Shown: positions 3,620 through 17,697 of the stretch, piece by piece
Numbering within the stretch: the stretch's first letter is position 1
How the letters are laid out: each line of letters begins with the position of its first letter
NCBI GenBank assembly: GCA_022819825.1
Contig: JAJEGM010000021.1
Span: 1-64,000, forward strand
Length of the DNA: 64,000 nt
Origin: Acidimicrobiia bacterium
GTDB lineage: Bacteria > Actinomycetota > Acidimicrobiia > Acidimicrobiales > Bin134
Direction of reading: 5' to 3'
Position numbers and translations under genes: made by a program
The notes under the pieces: generated by a model
Told to the model about the DNA's origin: nothing
The model's database searches: none
Seen by the model: the letters and a program-made list of their open reading frames with translations, nothing else

Positions 3620-3677
3620 CGGTCGACCTCCTGGAGGCCCGGCATCAGGTGCCATCGGGCCTGCCCCTTGTCTCGAC

Positions 3678-3696
3678 TCTTGCTAATGTATCAAGA
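3678..3696. promoter_or_regulatory. Candidate TetR operator palindrome in a divergent promoter
   Basis: The 19-bp sequence tcttgctaatgtatcaaga is an imperfect palindrome. Its arms, tcttgcta and tatcaaga, match at 7 of 8 positions as inverted repeats. It is the most AT-rich part of the 110-bp gap between the Rieske and Baeyer-Villiger genes. Size and location fit a TetR-family operator covering both promoters. This is inference from symmetry and position only. Confidence 0.45.
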
Positions 3697-3729
3697 TTAC
3701 TAAGAAGTTGGCCACAGCGGACGGAGCCG

Positions 3730-5562
3730 ATGAGCATCACCGATGACCAGCCGACGCATCCCTTGCCGGACTTGGAAGAGATCCGGCACCGGTACCGCAG
3801 CGAGCGCGACAAGCGCCTGAGGCCCGACGGCCCCGACCAGTACATTCAGGCCAAGGGGTCGTTCGCCCACTACATGGACGACCCCTGGGCCGACCCCGAA
3901 TTCACCCGTGAGCCGCTCCACGACGAGGTTGAGGTCCTGGTCGTAGGCGGAGGCCTGGGCGGCCTGCTGGCCGGGGCGCGGTTGCGCCAGCAGGGTATTG
4001 ACAGCATCCGTTTCGTCGAGCCGGCAGCCGACTTCGGGGGAACCTGGTACTGGAACCGATACCCGGGAATCTCCTGCGACGTGGAGTCGTACATCTATCT
4101 CCCCATGCTGGAGGAGGTGGGCTACGTGCCACAGCGCAAGTACTCCTACGGGAAGGAGATCCTCGAGCACTGCCAGGCGATCGCCCGCCAGTTCGACCTC
4201 TACCGGGACGCCTGCTTCCAAACCCGGGTCACCGGGCTCCGATGGGACGACGGCGCTTCGCGCTGGATGGTCGAGACCGGCCGCGGCGATCAGTTCAAGG
4301 CTCAGTACGTGTGCCTCGCGCTCGGGCAACTCAGCAAGCCCAAGCTGCCGGGGATTCCCGGCATCGAAGGCTTCGAGGGCCACTCGTTCCACACCAGCCG
4401 CTGGGACTTCGACTACACGGGAGGCGACCAGGAGGGCAACCTCACCGGTCTGAGCGGGAAGCGGGTCGGCGTTATCGGCACCGGCGCGAGCGGCGTGCAG
4501 GTCGTGCCCCACATCGCCGAGTGGGCGGAGCATCTCTACGTGTTCCAGCGGACCCCGTCTTCAGTCGATGTCAAGCAGAACCCGGAGACCGACCCCGAGT
4601 GGGCCCGGTCGCTGCCGCCGGGCTGGCACCAGCACCGCCGTGACAATTTCAATGCGCTGGTGTCAGGCGTCCCCCAGGAGGAAAACCTCGTCGATGACGG
4701 ATGGACCGACCTGATCGGCAACCTCGTCAGGCTCTTCCGGGACGGCGACGGCGTGGACCTGTCGCCCGAGGGCATCCAGCGGGCCGTCGAGCTGGCCGAC
4801 CTCCAGAAGATGGAGCAGATCAGGGCGCGGGTGGACGAGCTGGTCGACGACCCCGAGACCGCCGAGCTTCTCAAGCCCTACTACCGGCAGTTCTGCAAGC
4901 GGCCCTGCATCGACAACGACTACCTCCCCACGTTCAATCGCCCAAACGTCACCCTCGTTGACACGGCGGGGAAGGGCGTCGACCGCATCACGGCGACGGG
5001 CGTGGTGGTTGGCGAGCAGGAATATGAGGTGGATTGTCTGATCTACGCCAGTGGCTTCGAGGTTGGAACCCCGCTGTCGCAACGAGGGGGATTCGAGATC
5101 ATCGGCAACGGCGGCGAGACGCTCATGGAGAAGTGGGCCGACGGCCTTCGCACGATGCACGGCATGCACATGCACGGCTTCCCCAACCTCTTCCTTATGT
5201 CCATCGGCCAGTCGGCCAACACCGTGAACTACACCCACGTGCTCGACGAGCAGGCCATCCACCTGGCCTACATCGTCGCCCGCGCCCGCGAGGTCGAGGC
5301 GGTGGCGGTAGAGGTCTCCGCCGAAGCCGAGGAGGCCTGGGTCGACGCGTGTCGCGGGCAGGCGAACAACCGCGGGTTCTTCGACGACTGCACCCCCGGC
5401 TACTACAACAACGAGGGACAGGCTCGGAACCCCCAGAACGGCCCCTACGGCGTGGGCCCGGGAACCATCGAGTTCCTTCAGCTCCTGGGCGACTGGCGCG
5501 CCGCCGACGAGCTGGCCGGCATGGAATTACGCTGTGAGCAATCACCCCGGGGAGGGCCATGA
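3730..5562 (+). CDS. Baeyer-Villiger flavin monooxygenase
   Basis: The 610-residue product has two Rossmann nucleotide motifs: GGGLGGLLAG (about residue 73, FAD) and IGTGASGVQ (about residue 249, NADPH). Between them is the Baeyer-Villiger fingerprint FxGxxxHxxxW as FEGHSFHTSRWD (Phe215, Gly217, His221, Trp225). Such enzymes convert ketones to esters or lactones using NADPH and oxygen. The length matches the 4-hydroxyacetophenone/cyclohexanone monooxygenase group, with an extra N-terminal region of about 60 residues. ATG 3730 has GGAG upstream. Its stop overlaps the start of the SnoaL-like gene. Together with the divergent Rieske gene it suggests degradation of a cyclic ketone or steroid-like compound. 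Confidence 0.9.
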   Translation: MSITDDQPTHPLPDLEEIRHRYRSERDKRLRPDGPDQYIQAKGSFAHYMDDPWADPEFTREPLHDEVEVLVVGGGLGGLLAGARLRQQGIDSIRFVEPAADFGGTWYWNRYPGISCDVESYIYLPMLEEVGYVPQRKYSYGKEILEHCQAIARQFDLYRDACFQTRVTGLRWDDGASRWMVETGRGDQFKAQYVCLALGQLSKPKLPGIPGIEGFEGHSFHTSRWDFDYTGGDQEGNLTGLSGKRVGVIGTGASGVQVVPHIAEWAEHLYVFQRTPSSVDVKQNPETDPEWARSLPPGWHQHRRDNFNALVSGVPQEENLVDDGWTDLIGNLVRLFRDGDGVDLSPEGIQRAVELADLQKMEQIRARVDELVDDPETAELLKPYYRQFCKRPCIDNDYLPTFNRPNVTLVDTAGKGVDRITATGVVVGEQEYEVDCLIYASGFEVGTPLSQRGGFEIIGNGGETLMEKWADGLRTMHGMHMHGFPNLFLMSIGQSANTVNYTHVLDEQAIHLAYIVARAREVEAVAVEVSAEAEEAWVDACRGQANNRGFFDDCTPGYYNNEGQARNPQNGPYGVGPGTIEFLQLLGDWRAADELAGMELRCEQSPRGGP

Positions 5563-5936
5563 CGACCGACCAGGCCAGCATCGACGCGGTGGCCGACCGG
5601 TTCTTCGCCGTCTACGCCGCCGCCGATGAAGACGGCATACGGGAGATCCTCGCCCCCGACTTCGAGGGGTGGAGCAGTTCCTTCGGAGGCCGGGATCTCA
5701 CCGTCGACTCCCTGGTCACCGGGGCCAAGTGGGAGGCCGAGAACGTTGACATGACGCTCGACGAAGTGTGCCGTCATGTCACCGACCACGGCTTTGTGCG
5801 CCAGTTTGTGATCCGCCTGGCCAACGCCGAGGGCAACCCGATTGAGATACCGGGGTGCTTGGTGGCCCTGGTCGCCGACGGGCGGATTACCCGATTCGAC
5901 GAGTACCTGATAGTGCCAAACGCACCGCAGGAGTGA
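5559..5936 (+). CDS. SnoaL/NTF2-like protein
   Basis: The 125-residue product has the size and pattern of the SnoaL/NTF2-like alpha+beta cone fold: an N-terminal helix with VADRFFAVYAAADEDGIREI and a closing strand ADGRITRFDEYLIV. Members include polyketide cyclases, ketosteroid isomerase-like enzymes and many uncharacterised proteins. It starts within the stop of the monooxygenase gene (ATGA) with GGGGAGG upstream, so translation is probably coupled. A role in isomerising or hydrolysing the monooxygenase product is inference; no catalytic residue set can be assigned. Confidence 0.75.
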   Translation: MTTDQASIDAVADRFFAVYAAADEDGIREILAPDFEGWSSSFGGRDLTVDSLVTGAKWEAENVDMTLDEVCRHVTDHGFVRQFVIRLANAEGNPIEIPGCLVALVADGRITRFDEYLIVPNAPQE

Positions 5937-5978: not shown

Positions 5979-7820
5979 ATGTCCGATTCAGCAGACACCC
6001 CCGAACCGGCGCCTCAACAGAGCCTCCTGCGCCGCCTGCGCTGGTACATCGCAATCGCGGTGGTGGCCACCGTCGTGATCATCGTGCTGGTCGTGTCCGG
6101 CGGCGGCTCCGATGACGACGGCGACGACGCCACGCCCCCGGCCGCCGAAGAACGCGCGGACGACGAACCGATGGACGACGCCCCGGCGGCTGTCGACGAT
6201 GACACCGGCGACACCGCGCCCTCCGCGACCGATGAGCCCGCGGATGAAGAGCCGATGGACGACACCGCCGAAGCAACCGTTGACGAGCCCGAACCCAGCG
6301 ACGACACCGCCGTCGCCGAGCCCACCGAGCCGCCCGAGCCGCCCGAGCCCGAGTTCCCGGGGATCGGGTCCGAAGCAGCCCTGGCCAACCCGCACTGCGA
6401 CCCGGAGACCGGGAGGATCCGGGTGCCCCTCGTGGACGCCCCGCCGTGCGTCCTCGAATGGCCGGAGGGTGCCGACAACGGTGGAAACACGGCCCCGGGC
6501 GTTACCGCCGAGGAAATCGTCATGGTGGTGCGGGTGGACTCCGGCCAGACGGAGTTCGTCAACGACGTCGGCAGCATCCCCCGGGGCTGGCTGGACGGCG
6601 CCGACATCTTCAACCAGAACTTCGAGTTCTGGGGCCGCCAGGTCCGACTCGAGTTCATCGATGCGAGCGGATCAACCGAGGTCGCCCAGAGAGCCGACGC
6701 CACCAAGGCCGTGAACGACTTCCAACCGTTCCTAGCCACCGACGCCACCACCACCGGCGAGGGGAAAGCCATCTTCGAGGCTGAGATGGCAGCCCGAGGA
6801 GTGATCGTGTGGAGCACGGGCGTCTCCTGGCAGGAAACCCAGGACCAGCCCGGTTTCCGCTGGTCGGCCCTGGCCGACGACCGGGTAACCATGCTCCACG
6901 TGGCCGAGTACATCGGCAAGCGCGTCGCCGATTACCCAGTGCAGTGGGCCGGCGACGACGACATGATCGGCGAGCCCCGGCGGATCGGGATGATCTACAC
7001 CGACCGGTGGAGCAGGGACTTCATGGAAGACCAGGCCGCCCAGAATGGCTTCGAACTCGTGGAGGCGGTGAGCTACGACGAGGGCGCCGAGAACACGCAG
7101 CGACAGGAGAGAGCCCGGGTGATCGCCGCCCGGATGAAGGATGCCGGCGTAACCACCGTGATCGCCGGGACCGACAACCTGTTCACCAGGACAATCACCG
7201 CGGCGGCAACCGAACAGCAGTGGTTCCCGGAGTGGATCATCACCGGCTACAGCGGCCAAGACACGGCCTTCTTCGCCCGCGGCTACGACCAGGAGCAGTG
7301 GGCCCACGCCTTCGGGCCGGGTCCGATCGGGTTGAGCGTCGCCGACCAGCCCAACCCGCTGGCGGCCTTGTTCGAGTGGCACCACGGCCGGGAACCGGTC
7401 TCGCTGGCCGAGAGGTTCTCCCTTTCGACCCTGAAGTCGCCCATGTCGTGCCTCCATGCGGCCGGACCCGACCTCACCCCGGAGAGCTTCACCGAAGGCT
7501 GCTTCGCGCTGCCCCCGTCGCTCGGGTCGTACTGCGACTGCGTGACGAGCCCAGGCGCGGCCTTTGGCGAGGGCCGGCTTCCCTGGACCGATTACACCGG
7601 CTTCGACGACATGACCGAGAAGTGGTGGAACCCCGCGTACGAGCGCACCACCGCGACCGGGCGCGTTGTGGTCGGCGAATACATGAAGGTCGACGACGGG
7701 CGCCGCTACGCAGTCGGCGAGTGGACGGAAGAGCAACCGAGAGTGTTCGATCCGGACGCGGCCATCGGCATCCTCTACGAATTTCCCCCCAACGACACGC
7801 CGCCGAGCTACGAGCGCTAA
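5979..7820 (+). CDS. Membrane-tethered type I solute-binding protein (Liv-type ABC transport)
   Basis: The 613-residue product begins with a short cytoplasmic arm, one hydrophobic helix (about 22-40) and no lipobox Cys. It should therefore be anchored by a membrane helix instead of by lipid. Residues about 44-127 form an Asp/Glu/Pro/Ala-rich linker with a repeated EPMDD motif. The rest resembles a LivJ/HmgL-type periplasmic binding protein, with phrases such as GVTAEEIVMVV, AVNDFQPFLATDATTTGEG and GVTTVIAGTDN. It follows the BVMO/SnoaL genes and faces the fused Liv transporter operon, so it may deliver the catabolic substrate to that transporter. The substrate is unknown. Confidence 0.8.
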   Translation: MSDSADTPEPAPQQSLLRRLRWYIAIAVVATVVIIVLVVSGGGSDDDGDDATPPAAEERADDEPMDDAPAAVDDDTGDTAPSATDEPADEEPMDDTAEATVDEPEPSDDTAVAEPTEPPEPPEPEFPGIGSEAALANPHCDPETGRIRVPLVDAPPCVLEWPEGADNGGNTAPGVTAEEIVMVVRVDSGQTEFVNDVGSIPRGWLDGADIFNQNFEFWGRQVRLEFIDASGSTEVAQRADATKAVNDFQPFLATDATTTGEGKAIFEAEMAARGVIVWSTGVSWQETQDQPGFRWSALADDRVTMLHVAEYIGKRVADYPVQWAGDDDMIGEPRRIGMIYTDRWSRDFMEDQAAQNGFELVEAVSYDEGAENTQRQERARVIAARMKDAGVTTVIAGTDNLFTRTITAAATEQQWFPEWIITGYSGQDTAFFARGYDQEQWAHAFGPGPIGLSVADQPNPLAALFEWHHGREPVSLAERFSLSTLKSPMSCLHAAGPDLTPESFTEGCFALPPSLGSYCDCVTSPGAAFGEGRLPWTDYTGFDDMTEKWWNPAYERTTATGRVVVGEYMKVDDGRRYAVGEWTEEQPRVFDPDAAIGILYEFPPNDTPPSYER

Positions 7821-7839: not shown

Positions 7840-10800
7840 TCACGCCTTTTCGGTGACCTCAGAGCTGTCGTCATCGACCGCGGCCCACAGGCGGTCGTAG
7901 GCGCTGCCGGTCCCGATGAGCTCGTCGGGGGGACCGATCTCGACTACTCGGCCAGCCTCGAGCACGATGGCGAGGTCGGAGTGCTCGGCCACGTTTTGGC
8001 GGTGGGTGACGGTGAGGGTGGTGACCTCGAGGGCCCGGATCGCTTCGAGGACCCGGTCCTCCATCGGGCCGTCGAGACTGGACGTGGCCTCGTCGAGCAC
8101 GAGGATGTCGGGTCGGGCGAGCCACACCCGGGCCAGCGCCACGAGTTGGCGTTGGGCGGCGGTGAGGTTGCGGGCCTCCTCGTCCACGGGGTGCTCGTAG
8201 CCGCCGTCGAGGGCGGTGAGCACGTCGTGAGCACCGATGGCGCGCACCGCCCGATCGATCTCATCGAGGGAGGCATCGGGTCTCGAGTAGGCGATATTGG
8301 AGCCGATGGTGCCCTTGAACAAGAACGCGTCCTGGGGAACGATTCCAAGCCGCCGCCGGTATGAGCGCGACTGGTAGCGGGCGATGTCGACTCCCCCGAC
8401 GAGGACCCGGCCTCCAGTTGGGTCGTAGATCCGGGCGAGCAGCTTGGCGATCGACGACTTCCCCGCGCCGGTGAACCCGACGAGGCAGGTCACCGCGCCG
8501 GAGGGGAGCGTGAACGAGATGTCGTCTAAAACGGGACGGATGGTGTGCGGGTAGGTAAAGGCGACTGACTCAAAGGTCACGTCGCCATCGAGAGTCCCCG
8601 CCTGGGTCGCGTCAGCTTTCTCAACTGGCAGGATCGGCGTGTCAAACGGCTCGGCCAGGCGGTGCCAGGAGACCCGGGCCTCAAGCAGCTCGGTGTAGAT
8701 CGAGCTCATGTACGACAGGGGCTGAAGGGCCTGCTGGGCCACAAGCCGGGCCGACAGGGCGGTGCCCACCGCGACGGTGCCGGCCAGCACCTCGTGGCCC
8801 GCGCCCCACAAGATGAGCGCTCCGCCGACGTGGGTGATGAATGCCACGAGTTCCGAGTACAGGTTGGCGATCGAGGTTGCCCACCGCCGGCTCTGGCGCA
8901 GCTCCCAGGCATCCTCCACGAACCGGCGATTCGCCTTGTCGACCGCCCCGCAGCCCCGTAGCTCGTTGCGCCCCGCGAAGTGCTCCTCGAACGTGGCCAC
9001 GGTGCGGCCGAGGTCGTCGCGCGCTCGATTGAAGGCCCGCATGCCCAGGTAGAGTTGACCGGCGGTGAGGGCGAGGATCAACGCGATGATGCCGATGATC
9101 ACGGGAGTCAGTTGCGGCACCAGGACGATCACCACCACAACCCCCACCGTGAAGCGGCCCAGGCTGGAGATGAACCGGAACAGCCTCTCCCCCACGAATC
9201 CGAGGATGGTGTCGAGGTCGTTGACCACCCGGGTGGCCACCTCGCCGGGAAGCTCGCGGTCGTAGAAGTCGATGCCGAGCTTGGTGAGCCGGTGGAAGAT
9301 ACGACGCCGCAGCAAATAGCCGATCGACTGGGCGATCTTCATCGACAACACCCTCACGAAGTAGCCGCTGACCGCGAACACGACCCCGACAGCCACCACG
9401 GCGAGCCCGATCCCGTAGATGGCGCTCGTCTCGCCGTCCACGGCCGAATCGGTGGCCTCGGCGAAGAGAATCTCGGGACCGAGCCCGGCCAGGGAGTTCA
9501 CCACCAGCAAAACGAGCACGGCGAAGAGGGTGAACAGAGTGATCCCCACCAGCCACCTCACCCGGGGCATGGCGTCTACCCGGCATTGGGCGTCGGAGAC
9601 GATGGGCACCTCCTCGCTCACCTCAAGCGAGTGCACAACGTCCATCAGCTCGGAGGCAACCTCGCCGGTGCCCGGTTGCTCGTGGGCCGCAGCAGGGTCA
9701 AGTGGGTCCGTAACGGCGGGTCGGCCGAGATGCACCACGGTGTCAGCCATCGAGGCGGGACCAGGGCGTCGGGTGATGGCCACGATCGCGGCCTCGGGCA
9801 GGAACTCGGCAACCCGCCGGATGATCTCCATCTCGTGGGAGGGGTTGACGGCCGACAGGGCGTCGTCGAGCACGATCACCCGAGGCCGGGCCACCAGCGC
9901 TCGGGCCAAGGCGAGGCGCTGGCGCTGCCCGCCCGACAGCGTAAGGCCCCGGTCGCCCACATGGGTGCTCAGCCCGTCGATCATTCCGGCCACGATGTCG
10001 TCGGCGCCCGCCGCGTACAGAGAGGCGTTTATCTCGTCGTCGGACACCATCCACGCCGCCCCCAAGTCGAGGTTCTGGCGAAGCGATCCCGAGAACAGCA
10101 CCGGATCCTCAGCCACGACCCGCACCATCGTGCGGATGGTGGTTACGTCGAGCTCGCCCAGGGGCCGCCCGTCGAGCAGGACCTCCCCACTCGTCGGCTC
10201 GACTAGGCCGCCGACCAAGCCGGCCAGCGTGGTCTTGCCGGAGCCGGGCGGACCGTTCACCACCACGAGCTGGCCGGGACGAGCCTCGAACGACAGGCGG
10301 TCGATCACCGGGGTGCCTTCAAATGAGACCCCCGCGTCGCGAAGCTCAACCGACTCGAAGCGGCTGGCGGCGGGCCGCCCCTCGGTGGGCCGGTTGCCCA
10401 GCGAGAGCACCTCGGCTAGCCGACTCTGAGCGGTGCGCAGGAACTGCCAAGAGCTGGCCAGCTCGTCGAAGATCTGGGCGATGGCGATGACATACCCCGC
10501 CACCTGGAACGTAACGAGGAACACCCCCACAGACAGCTGATCGGCGGCGATGAGCTGGGCGCCGGCCACCAGCACCAGGGCGTTGATGAGCAGGGGAACG
10601 GCCTTGAGCAGAATGTCGTAGCGGGCCAGCAGCCGGACCCGGGTCATGGAGTAGCGGTAGGCCCGCAGCGCGGTGGCCCCCAGTCGCTCCCGCTCGTGCT
10701 CTTCGCGCCCGAACGCCCGCATGACCCGCACGCCGCGGACGGGCTCGTCGATGGCGGTAGCCACCTCGGCCCGCTCGTTCAACTCCGCCCAGCTCAGCCC

Positions 10801-11385
10801 CCACAGGCGCACCCGGAACTTGGAGAGGAACCAAAGGTTGAGGGGCAGCGCCAGAAACGCGATCACCGCCAGCGGAGGGCTGAGATACGCGAGGTACACG
10901 AGCAGGGCGATCGTCGCCGGTGCCAGCGTCACGATGGAGGGCAGGAACTGGATGATGCGCTGCACCATCTTGAGGTCGGTCATCGACCGGGTGACGAGCT
11001 GCCCAGTTGCCATCTGCTGGGACATGCGGAGGTCGGCCCACTGCACCCGGGAGTAGAGCCAGGCCCGCAGGTCGTACTCCAGCTGATAGCCGATCCGAGC
11101 CGTCAATTGGCGGGTGGCGAAGCCCACAATGAAGCTCAGCACGGCCAGCTTGGCGATGTGGGACACATAGGGCCCGATGGGAGCGGCTTGATCGACGATG
11201 CCGTTGTCCACCAGCCTCACCACTGCCTGGGCGATCATGAGGGTCAAGATGCTGTGCAGCACGATTAGCGCCAGCACGGCTCGTACCGGCCCCCTCTGGC
11301 GGGCCAGGAGCATCCACACCAGCGACCGGCGCGCCGCCGTGGTGGTGGTGGCCGCCCGCACCCTCATCGACTCGAGCCTGCTCAT
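7840..11385 (-). CDS. Single-chain ABC exporter (TMD-NBD-TMD-NBD), asymmetric sites
   Basis: The 1181-residue protein fuses two ABC exporter halves. NBD1 has Walker A GPPGSGKTT (378-386), signature LSGGQ (483-487), a Walker B ending Asp508 where Glu is usual, and Arg in place of the switch His. NBD2 has Walker A GFTGAGKSS (970-978), a degenerate signature LTAAQ (1074-1078), catalytic Glu1099 and switch His1128. The NBD2 Walker site paired with the NBD1 signature is fully canonical; the other site is degenerate. This is the pattern of heterodimeric exporters, here in one chain as in mycobacterial Rv0194-type pumps. Its ATG overlaps the stop of the fused Liv gene by 4 bp. Drug or lipid export is inferred. 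Confidence 0.9.
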   Translation of the reverse strand: MSRLESMRVRAATTTTAARRSLVWMLLARQRGPVRAVLALIVLHSILTLMIAQAVVRLVDNGIVDQAAPIGPYVSHIAKLAVLSFIVGFATRQLTARIGYQLEYDLRAWLYSRVQWADLRMSQQMATGQLVTRSMTDLKMVQRIIQFLPSIVTLAPATIALLVYLAYLSPPLAVIAFLALPLNLWFLSKFRVRLWGLSWAELNERAEVATAIDEPVRGVRVMRAFGREEHERERLGATALRAYRYSMTRVRLLARYDILLKAVPLLINALVLVAGAQLIAADQLSVGVFLVTFQVAGYVIAIAQIFDELASSWQFLRTAQSRLAEVLSLGNRPTEGRPAASRFESVELRDAGVSFEGTPVIDRLSFEARPGQLVVVNGPPGSGKTTLAGLVGGLVEPTSGEVLLDGRPLGELDVTTIRTMVRVVAEDPVLFSGSLRQNLDLGAAWMVSDDEINASLYAAGADDIVAGMIDGLSTHVGDRGLTLSGGQRQRLALARALVARPRVIVLDDALSAVNPSHEMEIIRRVAEFLPEAAIVAITRRPGPASMADTVVHLGRPAVTDPLDPAAAHEQPGTGEVASELMDVVHSLEVSEEVPIVSDAQCRVDAMPRVRWLVGITLFTLFAVLVLLVVNSLAGLGPEILFAEATDSAVDGETSAIYGIGLAVVAVGVVFAVSGYFVRVLSMKIAQSIGYLLRRRIFHRLTKLGIDFYDRELPGEVATRVVNDLDTILGFVGERLFRFISSLGRFTVGVVVVIVLVPQLTPVIIGIIALILALTAGQLYLGMRAFNRARDDLGRTVATFEEHFAGRNELRGCGAVDKANRRFVEDAWELRQSRRWATSIANLYSELVAFITHVGGALILWGAGHEVLAGTVAVGTALSARLVAQQALQPLSYMSSIYTELLEARVSWHRLAEPFDTPILPVEKADATQAGTLDGDVTFESVAFTYPHTIRPVLDDISFTLPSGAVTCLVGFTGAGKSSIAKLLARIYDPTGGRVLVGGVDIARYQSRSYRRRLGIVPQDAFLFKGTIGSNIAYSRPDASLDEIDRAVRAIGAHDVLTALDGGYEHPVDEEARNLTAAQRQLVALARVWLARPDILVLDEATSSLDGPMEDRVLEAIRALEVTTLTVTHRQNVAEHSDLAIVLEAGRVVEIGPPDELIGTGSAYDRLWAAVDDDSSEVTEKA

Positions 11386-14300
11386 GTCGTCCCGCTCAGG
11401 TCGGGATCAGGGCTCTTGAACCCCCCGTCAGATCGCTGGATTGCAGAGCGGGACCCGCCGAGGTAGGAGGCGACTACCGCGGGATCCTCAAGGACCTTGC
11501 TCACCGCACCCTCGGCCACTTGGGCCCCGAGGTCGAGGGCCACCATCCGGTCGCAGATCGACGCCAGCACCGCCATGTCGTGATCGATCACCAAAAGGCT
11601 GGCGCCGGTGTCGTCGCGGATCTGCTCCAGCATCGGCCCGAGTGCCTCCGCCTCCCGCTGGGCGATGCCCGAGGAGGGCTCGTCGAAGAGGATCACGCGG
11701 GGCGCGCCCAATCTCTGGCAGGCGAGATCCACGATCCGCCGGGTTCCGGTAGACAGCTCCGACACGAACTTCTCGCGGTAGGCGTCGAGCCCGAGGCCCT
11801 CGATCAGCTCGTCCACCTGGCTCTGGAGGCGGTCCTCGGCCCGGCGGACGTCGGGAAATCCGAGGGCGGCGGCCACGGGATCGCGGGTGGCCATGGTCTG
11901 GTCGAGGGCCACCTTCAACACGTCCTCCACGGTCAGCGATCCGAACAGCCGGGAGTCCTGGAACGAGTGCCCCAGCCCCAGTCGGGATCGGCGGTCGGGC
12001 GAGAGGTGGGTGATGTCGCGCCCGTCGAGCAGCACCCGTCCCTCGTCGGGGGTCTGGAGGCCCGTGATCAGCTCGAACACCGTGGTCTTCCCCGCGCCGT
12101 TCGGCCCGATGAGGCCCACTATCTCTCCCTCTCCCACTCGAAGCGAGACCCGGTCCACCGCCCGGTTGCCAGCGAACGACTTGGACAGCCCCTCGATTTC
12201 GAGCCGCGGCGCGGCGGTAGCCCCGACGGGGGCGCCAATCGGACGCTGCTGGTGCGAGGCGCGGACCGCGGCCCCGCCCAAGAACACCGAGCGGACAACG
12301 TCGTCGCGCTCCAAGAGGTCGCTGGTGGGCCCCCGGAAGCGGACTTCGCCCTTCTCCATGAAGAACGCGGTCTCCGCGATCGCCAGCGCCACGTTCACCG
12401 ACTGCTCCACCACCACGATCGTGATCCCGTCGTCGTTCAAGGCCCGCACCACTTCGAGGAGTTGCTCCACCACCGCGGGGGCAAGGCCCAGCGACAACTC
12501 GTCGATGAGGAGGATCCGGGGCTTGGCCATGAGCGCCATCGCCACGCCGAGCATGTGCTGCTGGCCGCCGGACAGGTTGGCGGCCAGCTCGTTCAGCTTC
12601 CCCTCCAGGCCAGGAAACACCTCGAGCACCCGGGCGGTCTCCCGCTCCATGTGATGTTTGTCGCGGCGGTGCAACCATCCGCCCAGAGCGATGTTCTCGG
12701 CCACGGTAAGGGAGCCGAACACAGCCCGGCCGCCGGGGACTTGGGCGATTCCCAGCGCGGCAATCCGGTGCGGCGCCATCGTGGTGATGTCGGCCCCCTC
12801 GAACGACACCGACCCGCTGCTGGCCACCGAGAGACCGGACACGGCCCGCAGAACGGTGGACTTTCCCGCGCCGTTGGTTCCCAGCAACGCCACAAAGTCG
12901 CCCTCGGCCACCTCGATGTTGATGCCGAACAACACCTGCACCGGCCCATACGACACATCGATCGATCTCACGCTCAGCAGCGAACCGTCGTGATCGTCGC
13001 CCATGAGGATGTCGGGGAATGAGAAGTAGTCGGTGGGCGGCGCCTGCTTGCTGGGCAGATAGCGGAACACGCCCTCGGCGTCGCGTCGAGGTGATCTCGA
13101 AACGGCCACCGGCTCCGAGGACCCGAGCTCGGCGGTCTCGCCTTGGTCGTCGATGCGCTGGTCGGCGAACAGATTGGGGACCGGTATCTGGCGGCGGAAG
13201 GCCACGATGGCCAGCAAGCGGCGACGCATCTCGTAGAGCAGCCCGCCGAGGCCCTCGCGCAGGAACATCAACACCACCAGCAGGCCGACACCGCTGCTGG
13301 CGAACAACCACAGCGGCCGGATGTCGGCGGGGATGTCGTCGCTGAAGAACTCGGTGCCCTGGAGGAAGACCGCGCCGAGGATGGCGCCCGGCACCGACCC
13401 GAGGCCGCCGATCACCACCATCGTGAGGATCCGGATGCTTTCCGCCGGCGAAAACGAGCCCTGGCCCAGCGCCTGCTGGTGCAGCGTGAACAGACCTCCG
13501 GCCAACGAGGCGTAGAAGCCCGAGATGGCGAACGCCATCAGCTTTGTCCGGGTCAGGTTCACGCCGAACGCCTGGGCGTTGCTCTCGTTGTCGCGCGCCG
13601 CCCGCAACACCCGCGCCGTGCGGGTTGCCTCCAGCCGCCCCACCGTCCAGATCACCGCGATGAGCGCGGCAAGGCACACGTAGTAAAAGGCGTGCTCGCT
13701 CGACACGTCGATCCGCCCCAGAAGAGGCAGCCGGGTGACCCGTTCGTCGATGTTGTCGGGCAAAAAGGTGAACCGGTCCTCGTCGAGGAGGAACGACGCC
13801 GTCGCCACCGAGAAGGCGAGGGTGGTCACCGCCAGGAACAGCCCTCGAATGCGCAGGGCGGGCAGTCCGACAATCACCGACGCCACCGCACCGATTACCC
13901 CGGCGAGCACCAGCGTGAGGGTGAGGTCCCATTGGTAGTGCACGTTCACCACCGCTCCCGTGGCTGCGCCGATGGCAACGAAGCCCATATGGCCGAGGCT
14001 GATCTCTCCGGACCAGCCGGTGAGGATCACCATGCTCACGGCGATGATCCCGTAGATCATGACCGCCGCCGCGAAGTTGGTGTCGGAGTCGCCCAGTGCG
14101 GTCGGCAGCCACAGCAAGACGAGGACCATCGCAAGCTTGGCCAGCCATCCACCCCATCGCACCTCTGGTAGCGAGGCCAGCTTGCGGGGGACTTTCTTCA
14201 CCGACGCGGTCTCCACCCACGACCCCTCGACCTGCGCTTCGGCTCGGCCGCGGGCGCGCCGCTGGAACAAGAGCACGACGACAATCACGAATAGTGCCGG

Positions 14301-15224
14301 GTCGATCAGCGCCGCGGTGTCCTCGTTCCAGATGATGGCCGTCTCCAGCACGCCAAGAAACGTGGCACCCACGAACATCACCGAGTAGTTCTCCATCCGC
14401 CCCATCACCGCCACGGCAAGTGCCCTCAGGAGGATGGCAGGCCCGAAAGCAGGCCCGAGCGGGAGTCCGAACATCCCCGCTCGCAGCACCATGGCCACCG
14501 CGGCCAGCACCGCGGCGATGATCCACACCACGTTCTGGGTTCCCCGCACGTCGATGCCCACCAGCGAGGCGCGGTCCCGACTCTGGGCACTGGCTCTCAC
14601 CGCGGTTCCCACGTCGGTGCGGTTGAGAAACGCCATGAGGCCGAAGATGGTGACGGGCACGATGATCATCGCCAACAGGTCGTTGACGGTGAACACGATC
14701 GGATCGATCTCGAAGGTGAAGTCGATGGGCGGGTTGAATCTCGGGAAGCGAAGGAGCGCTAATCCGTCCTCGTCGCTGAAAAGCGTCGGGATGTAGAAGC
14801 CGATACCGAGCAGAAGCTGGGCGAGCCCGATGGTGGCGACGCTGAGAATGATCCGCGGCGCCTTCCAGAATCGGCGGATCACGAGGAACTCCACCGCCGA
14901 GCCCAGTGCCATGGCCACCACAATCGTTATCGGGAGGACGACAAAGTACGGCCAGTCCCAGTCCCTCAACAACGACAGTCCCACCGTGGCCGGCACCACA
15001 CCCAGGTCGGCCTGGGCGAAGTTGATGATCCCGTTCGTCTTGTACACCAGCGACAGGCCGAACGCCAGCAGCGCGGTGAGCGAGCCCACCACCACACCCT
15101 GAACAATCACCCCCGGCGGCGTGGGCCAGATGAACTGGAGCGCGCCGAGCGCGGCGCCCCAGATCACAGCCTGACGCGCGTATCGAACCAGAGTGTGGGG
15201 GCGAACGAGGGTGGGCGAGCTCAA
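11382..15224 (-). CDS. Four-domain fused branched-chain-type ABC transporter (LivH-LivM-LivF-LivG)
   Basis: One uninterrupted frame of about 1280 residues holds all four core parts of a Liv-type importer. In order they are a LivH-like permease (about 10-315, with GLSLVYKTNGIINFAQADLG), a LivM-like permease (about 355-680, with LTGWSGEISLGHMGFVAIGA), a LivF-like ATPase (Walker A GTNGAGKST, signature LSGGQ, IDELSLGLAP) and a LivG-like ATPase (Walker A GPNGAGKTT near 1040, FDEPSSGIAQ). The last ATPase has LSTGT where LSGGQ or LSYGQ is usual. I prefer TTG 15224 to GTG 15251, because GGAGGA lies 6 nt upstream and the TTG overlaps the upstream stop (TTGA). It is coupled to the exporter downstream. 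The tethered binding protein at 5979 is the obvious partner. Confidence 0.9.
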   Translation of the reverse strand: MSSPTLVRPHTLVRYARQAVIWGAALGALQFIWPTPPGVIVQGVVVGSLTALLAFGLSLVYKTNGIINFAQADLGVVPATVGLSLLRDWDWPYFVVLPITIVVAMALGSAVEFLVIRRFWKAPRIILSVATIGLAQLLLGIGFYIPTLFSDEDGLALLRFPRFNPPIDFTFEIDPIVFTVNDLLAMIIVPVTIFGLMAFLNRTDVGTAVRASAQSRDRASLVGIDVRGTQNVVWIIAAVLAAVAMVLRAGMFGLPLGPAFGPAILLRALAVAVMGRMENYSVMFVGATFLGVLETAIIWNEDTAALIDPALFVIVVVLLFQRRARGRAEAQVEGSWVETASVKKVPRKLASLPEVRWGGWLAKLAMVLVLLWLPTALGDSDTNFAAAVMIYGIIAVSMVILTGWSGEISLGHMGFVAIGAATGAVVNVHYQWDLTLTLVLAGVIGAVASVIVGLPALRIRGLFLAVTTLAFSVATASFLLDEDRFTFLPDNIDERVTRLPLLGRIDVSSEHAFYYVCLAALIAVIWTVGRLEATRTARVLRAARDNESNAQAFGVNLTRTKLMAFAISGFYASLAGGLFTLHQQALGQGSFSPAESIRILTMVVIGGLGSVPGAILGAVFLQGTEFFSDDIPADIRPLWLFASSGVGLLVVLMFLREGLGGLLYEMRRRLLAIVAFRRQIPVPNLFADQRIDDQGETAELGSSEPVAVSRSPRRDAEGVFRYLPSKQAPPTDYFSFPDILMGDDHDGSLLSVRSIDVSYGPVQVLFGINIEVAEGDFVALLGTNGAGKSTVLRAVSGLSVASSGSVSFEGADITTMAPHRIAALGIAQVPGGRAVFGSLTVAENIALGGWLHRRDKHHMERETARVLEVFPGLEGKLNELAANLSGGQQHMLGVAMALMAKPRILLIDELSLGLAPAVVEQLLEVVRALNDDGITIVVVEQSVNVALAIAETAFFMEKGEVRFRGPTSDLLERDDVVRSVFLGGAAVRASHQQRPIGAPVGATAAPRLEIEGLSKSFAGNRAVDRVSLRVGEGEIVGLIGPNGAGKTTVFELITGLQTPDEGRVLLDGRDITHLSPDRRSRLGLGHSFQDSRLFGSLTVEDVLKVALDQTMATRDPVAAALGFPDVRRAEDRLQSQVDELIEGLGLDAYREKFVSELSTGTRRIVDLACQRLGAPRVILFDEPSSGIAQREAEALGPMLEQIRDDTGASLLVIDHDMAVLASICDRMVALDLGAQVAEGAVSKVLEDPAVVASYLGGSRSAIQRSDGGFKSPDPDLSGTT

Positions 15225-15685
15225 CAGAACTCCTCCCGGCGCTCTTCGCACTCGTCGCTTTCCGGCTCGCCGCGAACCACGAGGACGCAGCCGCGGGAGG
15301 TGACCGCGCCGTCTTCGCTCACACCGAAATCGGTCGCGGCCCAGCCGGACTGGTCGCGTGCGTGCTCGTCCACCGACAGGAAGTCAGACCCCTCGGGATC
15401 GTCGGTGAACCAGGTGAGAATGTCGCCGTCGAAGTCGTCGTCCTTTTCGACGGGAAGGAACTCAGCGCTTACGAAGAACTCATCGTCGGCCCGCTCATGG
15501 ACCCGACCGTGGCGCAGCGTCCCGTGGCCGGTAAGGCGCGCCTCCAGCGTCTCCATGGTGACGGTAAGCGCAACATCGCATTCGGCCACATCAATCGAAG
15601 GACCCGCGCACGCGGCGAAGACTGGTGCGACAAGGGCAAATATCACCAGGGGGCCGACGCGCCGGCCCCCTGTGCGGCTGGTCAT
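15221..15685 (-). CDS. Small predicted lipoprotein, first gene of the Liv operon
   Basis: The 154-residue product has a signal with a lipobox (LVAPVFAAC, cleavage before Cys26), then an acidic mature domain with several Cys residues and a short highly charged tail ending EERREEFC. I do not recognise a family. Its TGA overlaps the preferred TTG start of the fused Liv transporter, so the two are translationally coupled. An extracytoplasmic accessory role for that transporter is possible but inferred from position alone. Confidence 0.65.
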   Translation of the reverse strand: MTSRTGGRRVGPLVIFALVAPVFAACAGPSIDVAECDVALTVTMETLEARLTGHGTLRHGRVHERADDEFFVSAEFLPVEKDDDFDGDILTWFTDDPEGSDFLSVDEHARDQSGWAATDFGVSEDGAVTSRGCVLVVRGEPESDECEERREEFC

Positions 15686-15697
15686 GGCCGCTTCAGC

Positions 15698-17110
15698 TTA
15701 CTCCTCCGAGGAATCCCCCGAATCCAGTTGCTCGGCGATCTCGCGGAGGCGCTCGATGGCGGTCTCATCGTCGAGCTCGCCTAGGTAGGCGGGGAGCCTG
15801 ATGCCGACTTGGGCGGCCAAGTCGTGGATCGGAGGCAGGGAGCTGGCTAGGCCGGACAGGAAGTTGGCGGTGCTGTTGCCGGATTTGCCGTCGCTCCCGC
15901 CGGAGTCCCACACCGTGATCTGGTCGATCTGAAGATTGGAGATGGCCTTGACCTGCTCGGCCACCAAGTTGGGCATCTGCTCGGCAATCAGCAGCAGGGC
16001 GGCCAGCTGGGGATTGCCACCGGCGTTGGTCACCAGCGCCCCGAGGCCTTCGGCCCGGCGGGTGAGCAGGGCCAGCAAGCCCAGCGCCTCGGCCTCCATG
16101 AGCAGTCGCTGACCATCGGCCTCGCCGCCCTTGACCAGCCTGATCCGATCGGCCTCGGCCTCGGCCAGGGTGCGGACTCGCTCCCGCTCCACTTCGGCGG
16201 GCACCACGATGTCGGCTTCCTGGGAGGCCTTGTCACGAGAAGCCCGGGCCTGCTCGGCCACACCCTCGGCGGCAAACGACTCTTCGGCAGCCCGGGCCTG
16301 GGTGACCCGCTCAGCGGTGACCGCGGCCCGCTCGGCTTCGGCCTCCTGCTGGCGGCGTGTGCTGTCGGAGTTGGCAATCACCACCTGCGATTCGTTCTCG
16401 CCCTCGGTGGCGGTGGCGTTTGCCTCGGCCACCCTGATGCGCCGCTCCCGCTGGGCCTCGGCCGCGCCGATATCGCCGTCGCGTTCCTGTTCGGCCACCT
16501 TGATCTTGGCCTCGTTGATGGCCCGGGCGGCTGCCTCGCGCCCTAGGGCGTCGATGTAGCCCGACTCATCGGTTACATCCTGGATGTTGACGTTGATGAG
16601 TCGCAGCCCCACTTTGCGCAGCTCGATTTCCAGCGACTCGGTGATGTTGGTGATCAGCTTCTCCCGGTCGGCGTTGATTTCCTCAATGGGCATGGTGGCG
16701 ATCACCACCCGCATCTGGCCGAAGATGATGTCTCGGGCCAGGTTCTCGATCTCCACAAGGCTCAGCCCCAAAAGCCGCTCGGCAGCGTTCTGCATGACTC
16801 CGGGCTCGGTGGAGATTCCCACCGTGAACGTGGCCGGCGTGTTGACCCGGATGTTCTGCTGCGACAGGGCGCCTTGGAGCTTGATCTCAATCGGCAGCGG
16901 CGTGAGGTCCAAGAAGGCATACCCCTGAATGACGGGCCATACCAGGGCACCGCCTCCGTGGAGGCATCGGGCCGACTGGCCCTGTCCTCCAACCCGGCCG
17001 TAGATCACCAGCACGCGGTCGGAGGGGCAGCGCTTGTAACGGGAAGAAATCCACAGAAGTGCGATGAGAAGAATGACGATTAGGCCGGCAACAAGGGCTA
17101 TAGCCGCCAT
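15698..17110 (-). CDS. Flotillin-like SPFH/band 7 protein
   Basis: The 470-residue product has an N-terminal membrane helix (about 2-24) and an SPFH domain (about 28-190, with INADREKLITNITESLEIEL and VGLRLINVNIQDVTDESGYI). A long Ala/Glu/Arg-rich coiled coil follows (about 195-340), then a C-terminal region with ISNLQIDQITVWDSG. This is the flotillin/YuaG/YqiK layout; such proteins form membrane scaffolds on the cytoplasmic side. AAAGGA lies 7 nt before the ATG. It is directly downstream of an NfeD-like gene, the usual partner, and probably shares its transcript. Confidence 0.9.
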   Translation of the reverse strand: MAAIALVAGLIVILLIALLWISSRYKRCPSDRVLVIYGRVGGQGQSARCLHGGGALVWPVIQGYAFLDLTPLPIEIKLQGALSQQNIRVNTPATFTVGISTEPGVMQNAAERLLGLSLVEIENLARDIIFGQMRVVIATMPIEEINADREKLITNITESLEIELRKVGLRLINVNIQDVTDESGYIDALGREAAARAINEAKIKVAEQERDGDIGAAEAQRERRIRVAEANATATEGENESQVVIANSDSTRRQQEAEAERAAVTAERVTQARAAEESFAAEGVAEQARASRDKASQEADIVVPAEVERERVRTLAEAEADRIRLVKGGEADGQRLLMEAEALGLLALLTRRAEGLGALVTNAGGNPQLAALLLIAEQMPNLVAEQVKAISNLQIDQITVWDSGGSDGKSGNSTANFLSGLASSLPPIHDLAAQVGIRLPAYLGELDDETAIERLREIAEQLDSGDSSEE

Positions 17111-17142
17111 TAACGAGTCCTTTCGGGTCTAGGAGAGATGAG

Positions 17143-17697
17143 TTACAAGGGTTTGACTAGGACGGTGGACTGATCCACCACGGACACCACGGTGACGCGA
17201 GTCTGAGCCGGAAGGTCGTTATCCGAGCTGGTATAGGCGTCGATCACTCGGAGCCGTCCCTGGATGAGGATTTCAACCTTGCCGGGCATGGAGCGGTTGG
17301 CCGGGATCGGCAGGTAGACGGTGCCGACAGTTCCGACCGCGCTCTGGTAGTCGACCGAGCCGCTTTCCTCCATCTGGGAGAACTTGCGCCACATGTAGGC
17401 CACCGCGAAGAACACCGCCAGCCCCACCGCAATGGCCACGATCACCGAGACCGGGGTGGAGCTGTCGGCTTCCTTCATCAATACGCCGGTCCAGCCGAAG
17501 GCGAAGAAGAACGCCGTCAAGCTTCGCAGGGACAAGAACCCCGTTCCCGCGCCCTCGTCATCAAGGTCGATATCGAGGTCGGAACCGACGCCGAAGCCCA
17601 AGAGCAGGAGCTGGAGTATGAGGAAGACACCGGCGATGGCGCCGATCAGATAGAAGACCTGGAGGTCGCCGGTCAGGCCGTCCCACCAGTCACCCAT
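17143..17697 (-). CDS. NfeD-like membrane protein, flotillin partner
   Basis: The 184-residue product has transmembrane segments near residues 14-36, 54-72 and 82-101. A C-terminal beta-rich domain (about 115-184) has the OB-fold pattern of NfeD: SAVGTVGTVYLPIPAN, then GRLRVIDAYTSSDNDLPAQT and VTVVSVVDQSTVLVKPL. NfeD proteins are genetically linked to flotillins and thought to shape their membrane assemblies. GGAGGA precedes the ATG. The flotillin gene follows after 32 bp. Confidence 0.82.
   Translation of the reverse strand: MGDWWDGLTGDLQVFYLIGAIAGVFLILQLLLLGFGVGSDLDIDLDDEGAGTGFLSLRSLTAFFFAFGWTGVLMKEADSSTPVSVIVAIAVGLAVFFAVAYMWRKFSQMEESGSVDYQSAVGTVGTVYLPIPANRSMPGKVEILIQGRLRVIDAYTSSDNDLPAQTRVTVVSVVDQSTVLVKPL

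Follow-up and report, generated by a model that had tools for sequence, protein, structure and literature searches.

Genes at the locus

The stretch analysed here, called the window, comprises the first 64,000 nucleotides of contig JAJEGM010000021.1 (assembly GCA_022819825.1) of an Acidimicrobiia bacterium of the order Acidimicrobiales (Actinomycetota), and harbors on its minus strand a gene encoding in one polypeptide the complete core of a Liv-type ABC importer: the permeases LivH (H) and LivM (M) followed by the ATPases LivF (F) and LivG (G). A sequence-only reading of the window had placed these four modules, in this order and in one uninterrupted frame, at 11382-15224 without stating the strand. 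The coordinates were right, the plus-strand reading of the interval being interrupted by stops, and the modules and their order were borne out by Pfam and NCBIfam. The frame stops at 11382 and begins with TTG at 15224 (1280 aa) or, alternatively, with GTG at 15251 (1289 aa); the TTG lies in a TTGA overlap with the upstream gene that is the same in two congeners, G436 and G318.

Pfam recognized two stretches each of BPD_transp_2 (8.4e-60) and ABC_tran (1.5e-54) in the chain, and no match to a major facilitator superfamily (MFS) module, a domain that characterizes several relatives described below. Among the 25 of 197 NCBIfam models listed, the first ATPase is closest to UrtE and LivF and the second to UrtD, LptB and LivG. 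The F module scores 289.1 against UrtE, passing the cut-off of 285.8 by about 3 bits, and 264.3 against LivF (cut-off 441); the G module scores 291.8 against UrtD (cut-off 304.1), 287.9 against LptB (cut-off 240) and 270.6 against LivG (cut-off 362). Judged by these scores, kinship to LivF and LivG appears clear, at levels below those of the curated LivF and LivG names. The positions of all features are collected in Table 1.

Table 1. Features of the window and two-gene operons located elsewhere in the same genome.
Feature	Position	Strand	Remarks
FAD-dependent (FMO-like) oxidoreductase	3649-5562	+	adjoins binding-protein gene in window and both congeners
SnoaL-like protein	5559-5936	+	adjoins binding-protein gene in window and both congeners
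Likely substrate-binding protein, 613 aa	5979..7820	+	N-terminal transmembrane anchor, acidic/Pro-rich spacer, diverged Peripla_BP_6-like family; convergent to operon
Single-chain ABCB-type exporter, 1181 aa	7840..11385	-	two ABC_membrane and two ABC_tran stretches; 4-nt overlap with importer gene
Single-chain Liv-type importer core, H-M-F-G, 1280 aa, 136.7 kDa	11382..15224	-	Pfam, NCBIfam, congener conservation
LivG-type ATPase module	11439..12218	-	Walker A, Q-loop, catalytic Glu, H-loop His; signature LSTGT
LivF-type ATPase module	12270..12992	-	Walker A, Walker B, LSGGQ; Q-loop Gln replaced by Gly; H-loop Gln
M-F linker, 79 codons	12993..13229	-	start resembles C-terminal tail of separate LivHM proteins
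LivM-type permease module (PF02653)	13359..14078	-	E 1.5e-37
LivH-type permease module (PF02653)	14280..15107	-	E 2.0e-25
Small putative lipoprotein, 154 aa	15221..15685	-	FAAC lipobox read by eye; 4-nt overlap with importer start
Own-genome MFS-LivF + H-M-G operons	L009:4239-9388, L052:5661-10693, L054:3485-8631
Own-genome MFS-LivF + H-M-G operons	L058:4362-9595, L060:5789-11037, L061:3886-9026

Integrity of the reading frame

The importer frame is free of stops and frameshifts in G436 (98% identity) and G318 (90%), and it is kept intact in G126, a genome of a different order of the class (about 52-54% identity). Over the whole gene, the ratio of nonsynonymous to synonymous substitutions (dN/dS) is 0.151 against G318 and 0.139 against G436. 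In the comparison with G318, the four domains range from 0.038 to 0.175, the H-M linker reaches 0.235 and the M-F linker 0.151, so that this latter linker, which shares a DYFS/YPD-like patch with G126, is itself under purifying selection. Codon-position GC is of the coding type in domains and linkers alike. None of the 52 H-M-F-G frames described below contains any N between its first and last domain, and the single TGA codons flagged inside matches of G048, G072 and G256 are located at the chain end. The gene is real: a complete Liv-type core is encoded in a single polypeptide that evolves under selection, and it represents a new form of the Liv/HAAT importers.

Distribution of the single chain

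The search for fusions of the same order that the sequence-only reading had proposed yielded 52 verified H-M-F-G frames in 41 genomes (a list compiled by hand from the loci), including three frames, L089, L099 and L212, with a G module cut by a contig end; in a sample of the order, at least 27 of 99 genomes carry such a chain, both counts being lower bounds because at most six candidates per genome were scored and part of the matches examined. In the class sample, 22 of 395 genomes match at 1e-190, in a scan that scored two candidates per genome and in which long linkers split matches and hide chains. Within the phylum sample, 27 of 396 genomes reach 1e-60, and one H-M-F-G frame was verified outside the class (G480, L224).

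Among the matches listed for named genomes, the three closest loci belong to metagenome-assembled genomes (MAGs) titled Actinomycetota, Acidimicrobiales and Acidimicrobiia, and are split, MFS-carrying forms. The four modules also occur in one frame in the order H-M-G-F, in Rhodococcus sp. USK10 (plasmid record; L257:3932-7405, 1158 aa) and in Amycolatopsis sp. RYN_118 (MAG; L122:6977-10516, 1180 aa). Rhodococcus sp. ZPP presents H-M-G plus F, and Embleya sp. NBC_00888 (L256) an MFS-LivF protein plus H-M-G. A single-chain core had been regarded as unusual in the initial reading, which is not supported for this order given the above counts and, as shown below, the repeated appearance of such chains; H-M-G-F frames exist besides. 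The window's own genome additionally encodes a three-module H-M-F frame of 1129 aa (L056:4935-8321), with low scores to the window modules.

Split relatives carrying an MFS module

Six two-gene operons of the window's own genome encode an MFS domain preceding LivF, adjoining an H-M-G chain (Table 1); Pfam was used to check three of the six MFS-LivF proteins. In other genomes, the split form consists of LivHM followed by MFS-LivF-LivG. These split, MFS-carrying relatives were beyond the view of the sequence-only reading. The closest solved structures to the MFS module are 6e8j, a bacterial spinster homologue listed as a major facilitator family transporter, a D-galactonate transporter and SPNS1/SPNS2. 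No stand-alone MFS module was found for the system of the window, since in the own genome only the six MFS-LivF frames exceed 400 bits against this family, and the best of the remaining MFS proteins reaches 69 bits. A frame combining all five modules (H, M, MFS, F and G) was not encountered among those examined. An apparent fusion of a substrate-binding protein (SBP) with LivHM in G025 (L232:8054-11239) was discarded as an artefact, its junction containing a run of N. A CxxC...H motif resembling a zinc knuckle was observed in the F-G linker of L062, L063, L088 and L092, and in the LivHM tail of L115 and L226.

Origin of the fusion

When 87 concatenated domain sets were placed in a quick tree, those of the window, G318 and G126 grouped in one clade (SH-aLRT 100), itself nested in a clade of 26 rows (SH-aLRT 99) of which 20 are of the LivHM plus MFS-FG form. 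The H-M-F-G label changes seven times on this tree, at least five changes being forced by starred branches. A single origin of H-M-F-G was rejected by the approximately unbiased (AU) test in a 38-row set with 17 H-M-F-G rows (p 2.5e-128), and also without L211 and L217 (p 2.5e-4); these rely on quick trees and on groups named after the tree was seen, which the p-value ignores. L099, cut by a contig end, was left out of the first tree; L099, L212, L089 and L120 (cut), L111 (LivF-LivG outside the stretch) and L208 (near-copy) were left out of the second, and one further batch of loci, including the H-M-F-G loci L237, L241, L244, L245 and L246, is in no tree. Single chains arose more than once.

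Parsimony with equal costs favors the presence of MFS at the root (8 versus 9 changes, or 8 versus 10 if gains cost double). According to this history, MFS was lost eight times and six of those branches also gained the single chain. An old MFS-LivF fusion is further favored because the MFS modules of MFS-LivF and MFS-LivF-LivG belong to one family and are attached to the same end of LivF. Under all three fusion cost schemes, the window clade represents a fusion gain of its own. In several single chains, the M-F linker begins with a VPSLVAD-like tail, which is the end of many separate LivHM proteins, and both MFS loss and fusion would follow in one step from a deletion that began at the LivHM stop and took the MFS module with it. 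On the window's branch, the single chain most likely derived from a two-gene form (LivHM, then a spinster-like MFS-LivF-LivG) by joint loss of the MFS module and of the gene boundary, for which one in-frame deletion would be the simplest route.

ATP sites

Both in the four commonest variants of each group and in an alignment of 32 rows, Walker A, Walker B and an LSGG[QE]-type signature are preserved in the F module. The Q-loop position occupied by Gln or Glu in the ordinary LivF proteins used for comparison is Gly in this module, or in a few rows Ser or Ala; at the H-loop, F modules and ordinary LivF proteins alike have Gln. The G module keeps Walker A, the Q-loop Gln, the catalytic Glu and the H-loop His, and its signature is mostly LSTG[TS]. 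From what is established about ABC ATPases, these motif states lead us to expect two composite sites, one competent and the other degenerate. Because the split relatives have the same motifs, this asymmetry seems to predate the fusion.

The binding protein

The sequence-only reading had suggested that the importer probably pairs with the tethered binding protein encoded at 5979-7820, a proposal that is now well supported by three lines of evidence. This SBP is the sole strong member of its family in the own genome (458.8 bits, next 29.8), three weak members being located beside MFS-LivF operons; its relatives adjoin H-M-F-G or LivHM/FG genes; and distances among the SBPs are correlated with those among the transporters (r 0.84 over 74 pairs, against at most 0.11 in 2000 permutations), with an r that shared ancestry inflates. 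According to a hydropathy script, 69 of 78 SBP frames present a transmembrane-like N-terminal helix without lipobox, 3 a lipobox and 6 neither, several of these last being cut by contig ends. Peripla_BP_6 was matched by 20 of 35 family members. The SBP of the window is the likely partner of the chain.

The operon and neighboring genes

On the minus strand, the lipoprotein gene lies upstream and the exporter gene downstream of the importer, and the 4-nt overlaps joining the three genes are found in the window, G436, G318 and G126; the sequence-only reading had made no mention of this coupled exporter and lipoprotein. The same three genes thus follow in the same order in another order of the class, with 52-54% identity for the importer, 43-48% for the exporter and 38-40% for the lipoprotein. 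Of 198 sampled genomes of the class, 2 had a match to the lipoprotein (the own genome and G126), which is also present in G436 and G318. Importer and exporter are both encoded by G318, G436 and G126, and neither had a match (1e-190 and 1e-100, respectively) in the congeners G378, G380, G035 and G085. The genes for exporter, H-M-F-G chain, lipoprotein, SBP, SnoaL-like and FMO-like proteins all match in G436 and G318, the FMO match being partial because the stretches end there; the FMO-like and SnoaL-like genes may possibly belong to the pathway of the substrate.

Two genes that by eye resemble flotillin/SPFH (470 aa) and NfeD (184 aa) genes are situated directly upstream of the operon on the same strand (15698-17697); they are kept in G436 and unmatched in the G318 stretch. 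The exporter of the window (7840-11385) is of the heterodimeric type and itself a single chain; related exporter genes are unfused in L084-L086, near a similar SBP/Liv cluster.

Among 106 neighbor open reading frames (ORFs), from 133 picked among the 164 nearest of 283, we counted acyl-CoA dehydrogenases (5), AMP-binding proteins (4), GMC oxidoreductases (3) and enoyl-CoA hydratases (3); for want of a baseline, these counts were not used as evidence of function. A hydrophobic carboxylate or lipid-like solute is our weak guess for the substrate.

Comparison with known systems

Liv/HAAT importers (TC 3.A.1.4) include the LivFGHM-J/K system of E. coli and the Urt urea type. The window shares with them two BPD_transp_2 permeases, a LivF/UrtE-like and a LivG/UrtD/LptB-like ATPase, and an SBP family with Peripla_BP_6 members, but differs by its one chain instead of four, its transmembrane-anchored SBP, the Gly of the F Q-loop and the LSTGT signature of G. 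The chains of Rhodococcus sp. USK10 and Amycolatopsis sp. RYN_118 similarly unite four Liv modules in one frame, whereas their order is H-M-G-F and, in the tree, the Amycolatopsis sequence falls among ordinary Liv systems. The operons LivHM plus MFS-LivF-LivG and MFS-LivF plus LivHM-LivG have their clade and ATP-site motifs in common with the window, and an SBP of the window's family adjoins the former; on the contrary, they encode two polypeptides and bear a spinster-like MFS module on LivF. ABCB exporters (P-glycoprotein type) also hold an entire ABC core in one chain, but with an exporter fold, and such a chain is precisely encoded by the next gene of the window.

RbsA and NupO of B. subtilis are likewise described as two ATPases in one chain with one degenerate site, their permeases being separate, and fusion of nucleotide-binding domains is said to be relatively rare in prokaryotes (PMC11466899). 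Judging by titles and abstract starts, no paper among the open-licence PMC matches listed describes fused Liv systems, fused importers or MFS-ABC fusions, and no ABC-MFS fusion is described in the consulted parts of PMC3924187. What we expected less than the importer chain itself lies around it, namely MFS-LivF hybrids and a single-chain exporter coupled to the importer; by title or abstract start, none of the listed papers describes either.

A proposed working and its alternatives

The explanation that we consider probable as a whole combines a single-chain Liv-type core, its SBP partner, hydrolysis at one site and birth from an MFS-carrying two-gene form. One chain would supply two different permease halves (H and M) and two different ATPases (F and G) in a fixed 1:1:1:1 ratio. 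The SBP, tethered to the membrane's outer face by its N-terminal helix and long spacer, would most likely capture the solute and deliver it to H-M for import. ATP would close the F-G pair. Hydrolysis is expected at the intact site, made of the G Walker motifs and the F LSGGQ; the other site, made of the F Walker motifs and the LSTGT of G, is degenerate and should mainly hold ATP.

Several observations weigh against parts of this explanation. The second ATPase exceeds the cut-off of LptB and falls under those of LivG and UrtD, and the F degeneracy is partly a general Liv trait, as the H-loop of ordinary LivF is also Gln. The F-G linker (17 codons) and the tail (18 codons) are loose, with dN/dS of 0.74 and 0.97 against G318, and internal starts could still give rise to separate HM or FG products. 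The SBP of the window has no Pfam match at E 10, the PDB match of its family is weak (8wch, E 0.19), its gene is convergent to the importer operon and lies outside it, and the SBP match of G126 is weak, cut by the end of the stretch and located about 7 kb past the importer start. An ancestral MFS is favored by one step only, and doubling the cost of a fusion gain shifts the preference to a history of 4 gains and 3 losses.

The genome is an assembly of 57 contigs, 91% complete, in which separate genes might have been joined by sequencing or assembly error, the frame error on which the sequence-only reading itself would have foundered; this is contradicted by the same frame, free of frameshifts and stops, in G436, G318 and G126, by 51 further H-M-F-G frames, by linkers (H-M and M-F) whose dN/dS in the G318 comparison is far under 1 and by the coding-type GC of linkers, which leaves it a negligible probability. 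A cut of the chain in its linkers, or additional synthesis of HM and FG from internal starts, would make the working core a pair of polypeptides, as might be suspected from the length and variability of the linkers (with medians of 55, 72 and 35.5 aa over the 52 frames) and from the fast evolution of that between F and G; given the constraint on the M-F linker and the patch that it has in common with G126, we judge this quite unlikely. Similarly, the degenerate F site and the G signature would suit a degenerated or regulatory ABC protein that no longer transports, a reading made highly unlikely by the one full consensus site, by split relatives with identical motif states and by purifying selection on the gene.

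The importer could also depend for its function on a trans-envelope exchange unit that it would form with the exporter and lipoprotein encoded beside it, as suggested by the 4-nt overlaps among all three genes in four genomes and by the co-presence or co-absence of importer and exporter in 7 of 7 genomes besides the own one. However, the fused exporter adjoins 4 of the 52 H-M-F-G loci (window, G436, G318 and G126), one more locus (L098) has an exporter gene nearby, and the other 47 are without exporter match in the stretches examined, some of which are short; moreover, sharing an operon does not prove a joint machine, and we regard an obligate unit as unlikely. A more extended scenario, in which the ancestor was a hybrid of two transporter superfamilies with a spinster-like MFS carrier joined to the LivF ATPase of an ABC importer, single deletions of MFS module and gene boundary repeatedly gave birth to single chains and the window's branch then formed an importer/exporter/lipoprotein operon working as a unit that carries a hydrophobic solute in both directions, is tentative and seems to us rather doubtful.

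Significance

Single-chain importers may hide under partial names in annotated genomes, as the listed fused genes are called just ATP-binding or permease proteins. Since their subunit ratio and asymmetry are fixed, natural single-gene Liv-type importers would be useful for the study of structure and mechanism. Finally, the lineage has the same transporter with and without its MFS carrier and passed from one state to another several times separately; it is thereby a set of natural experiments in which the role of an attached MFS carrier can be tested.

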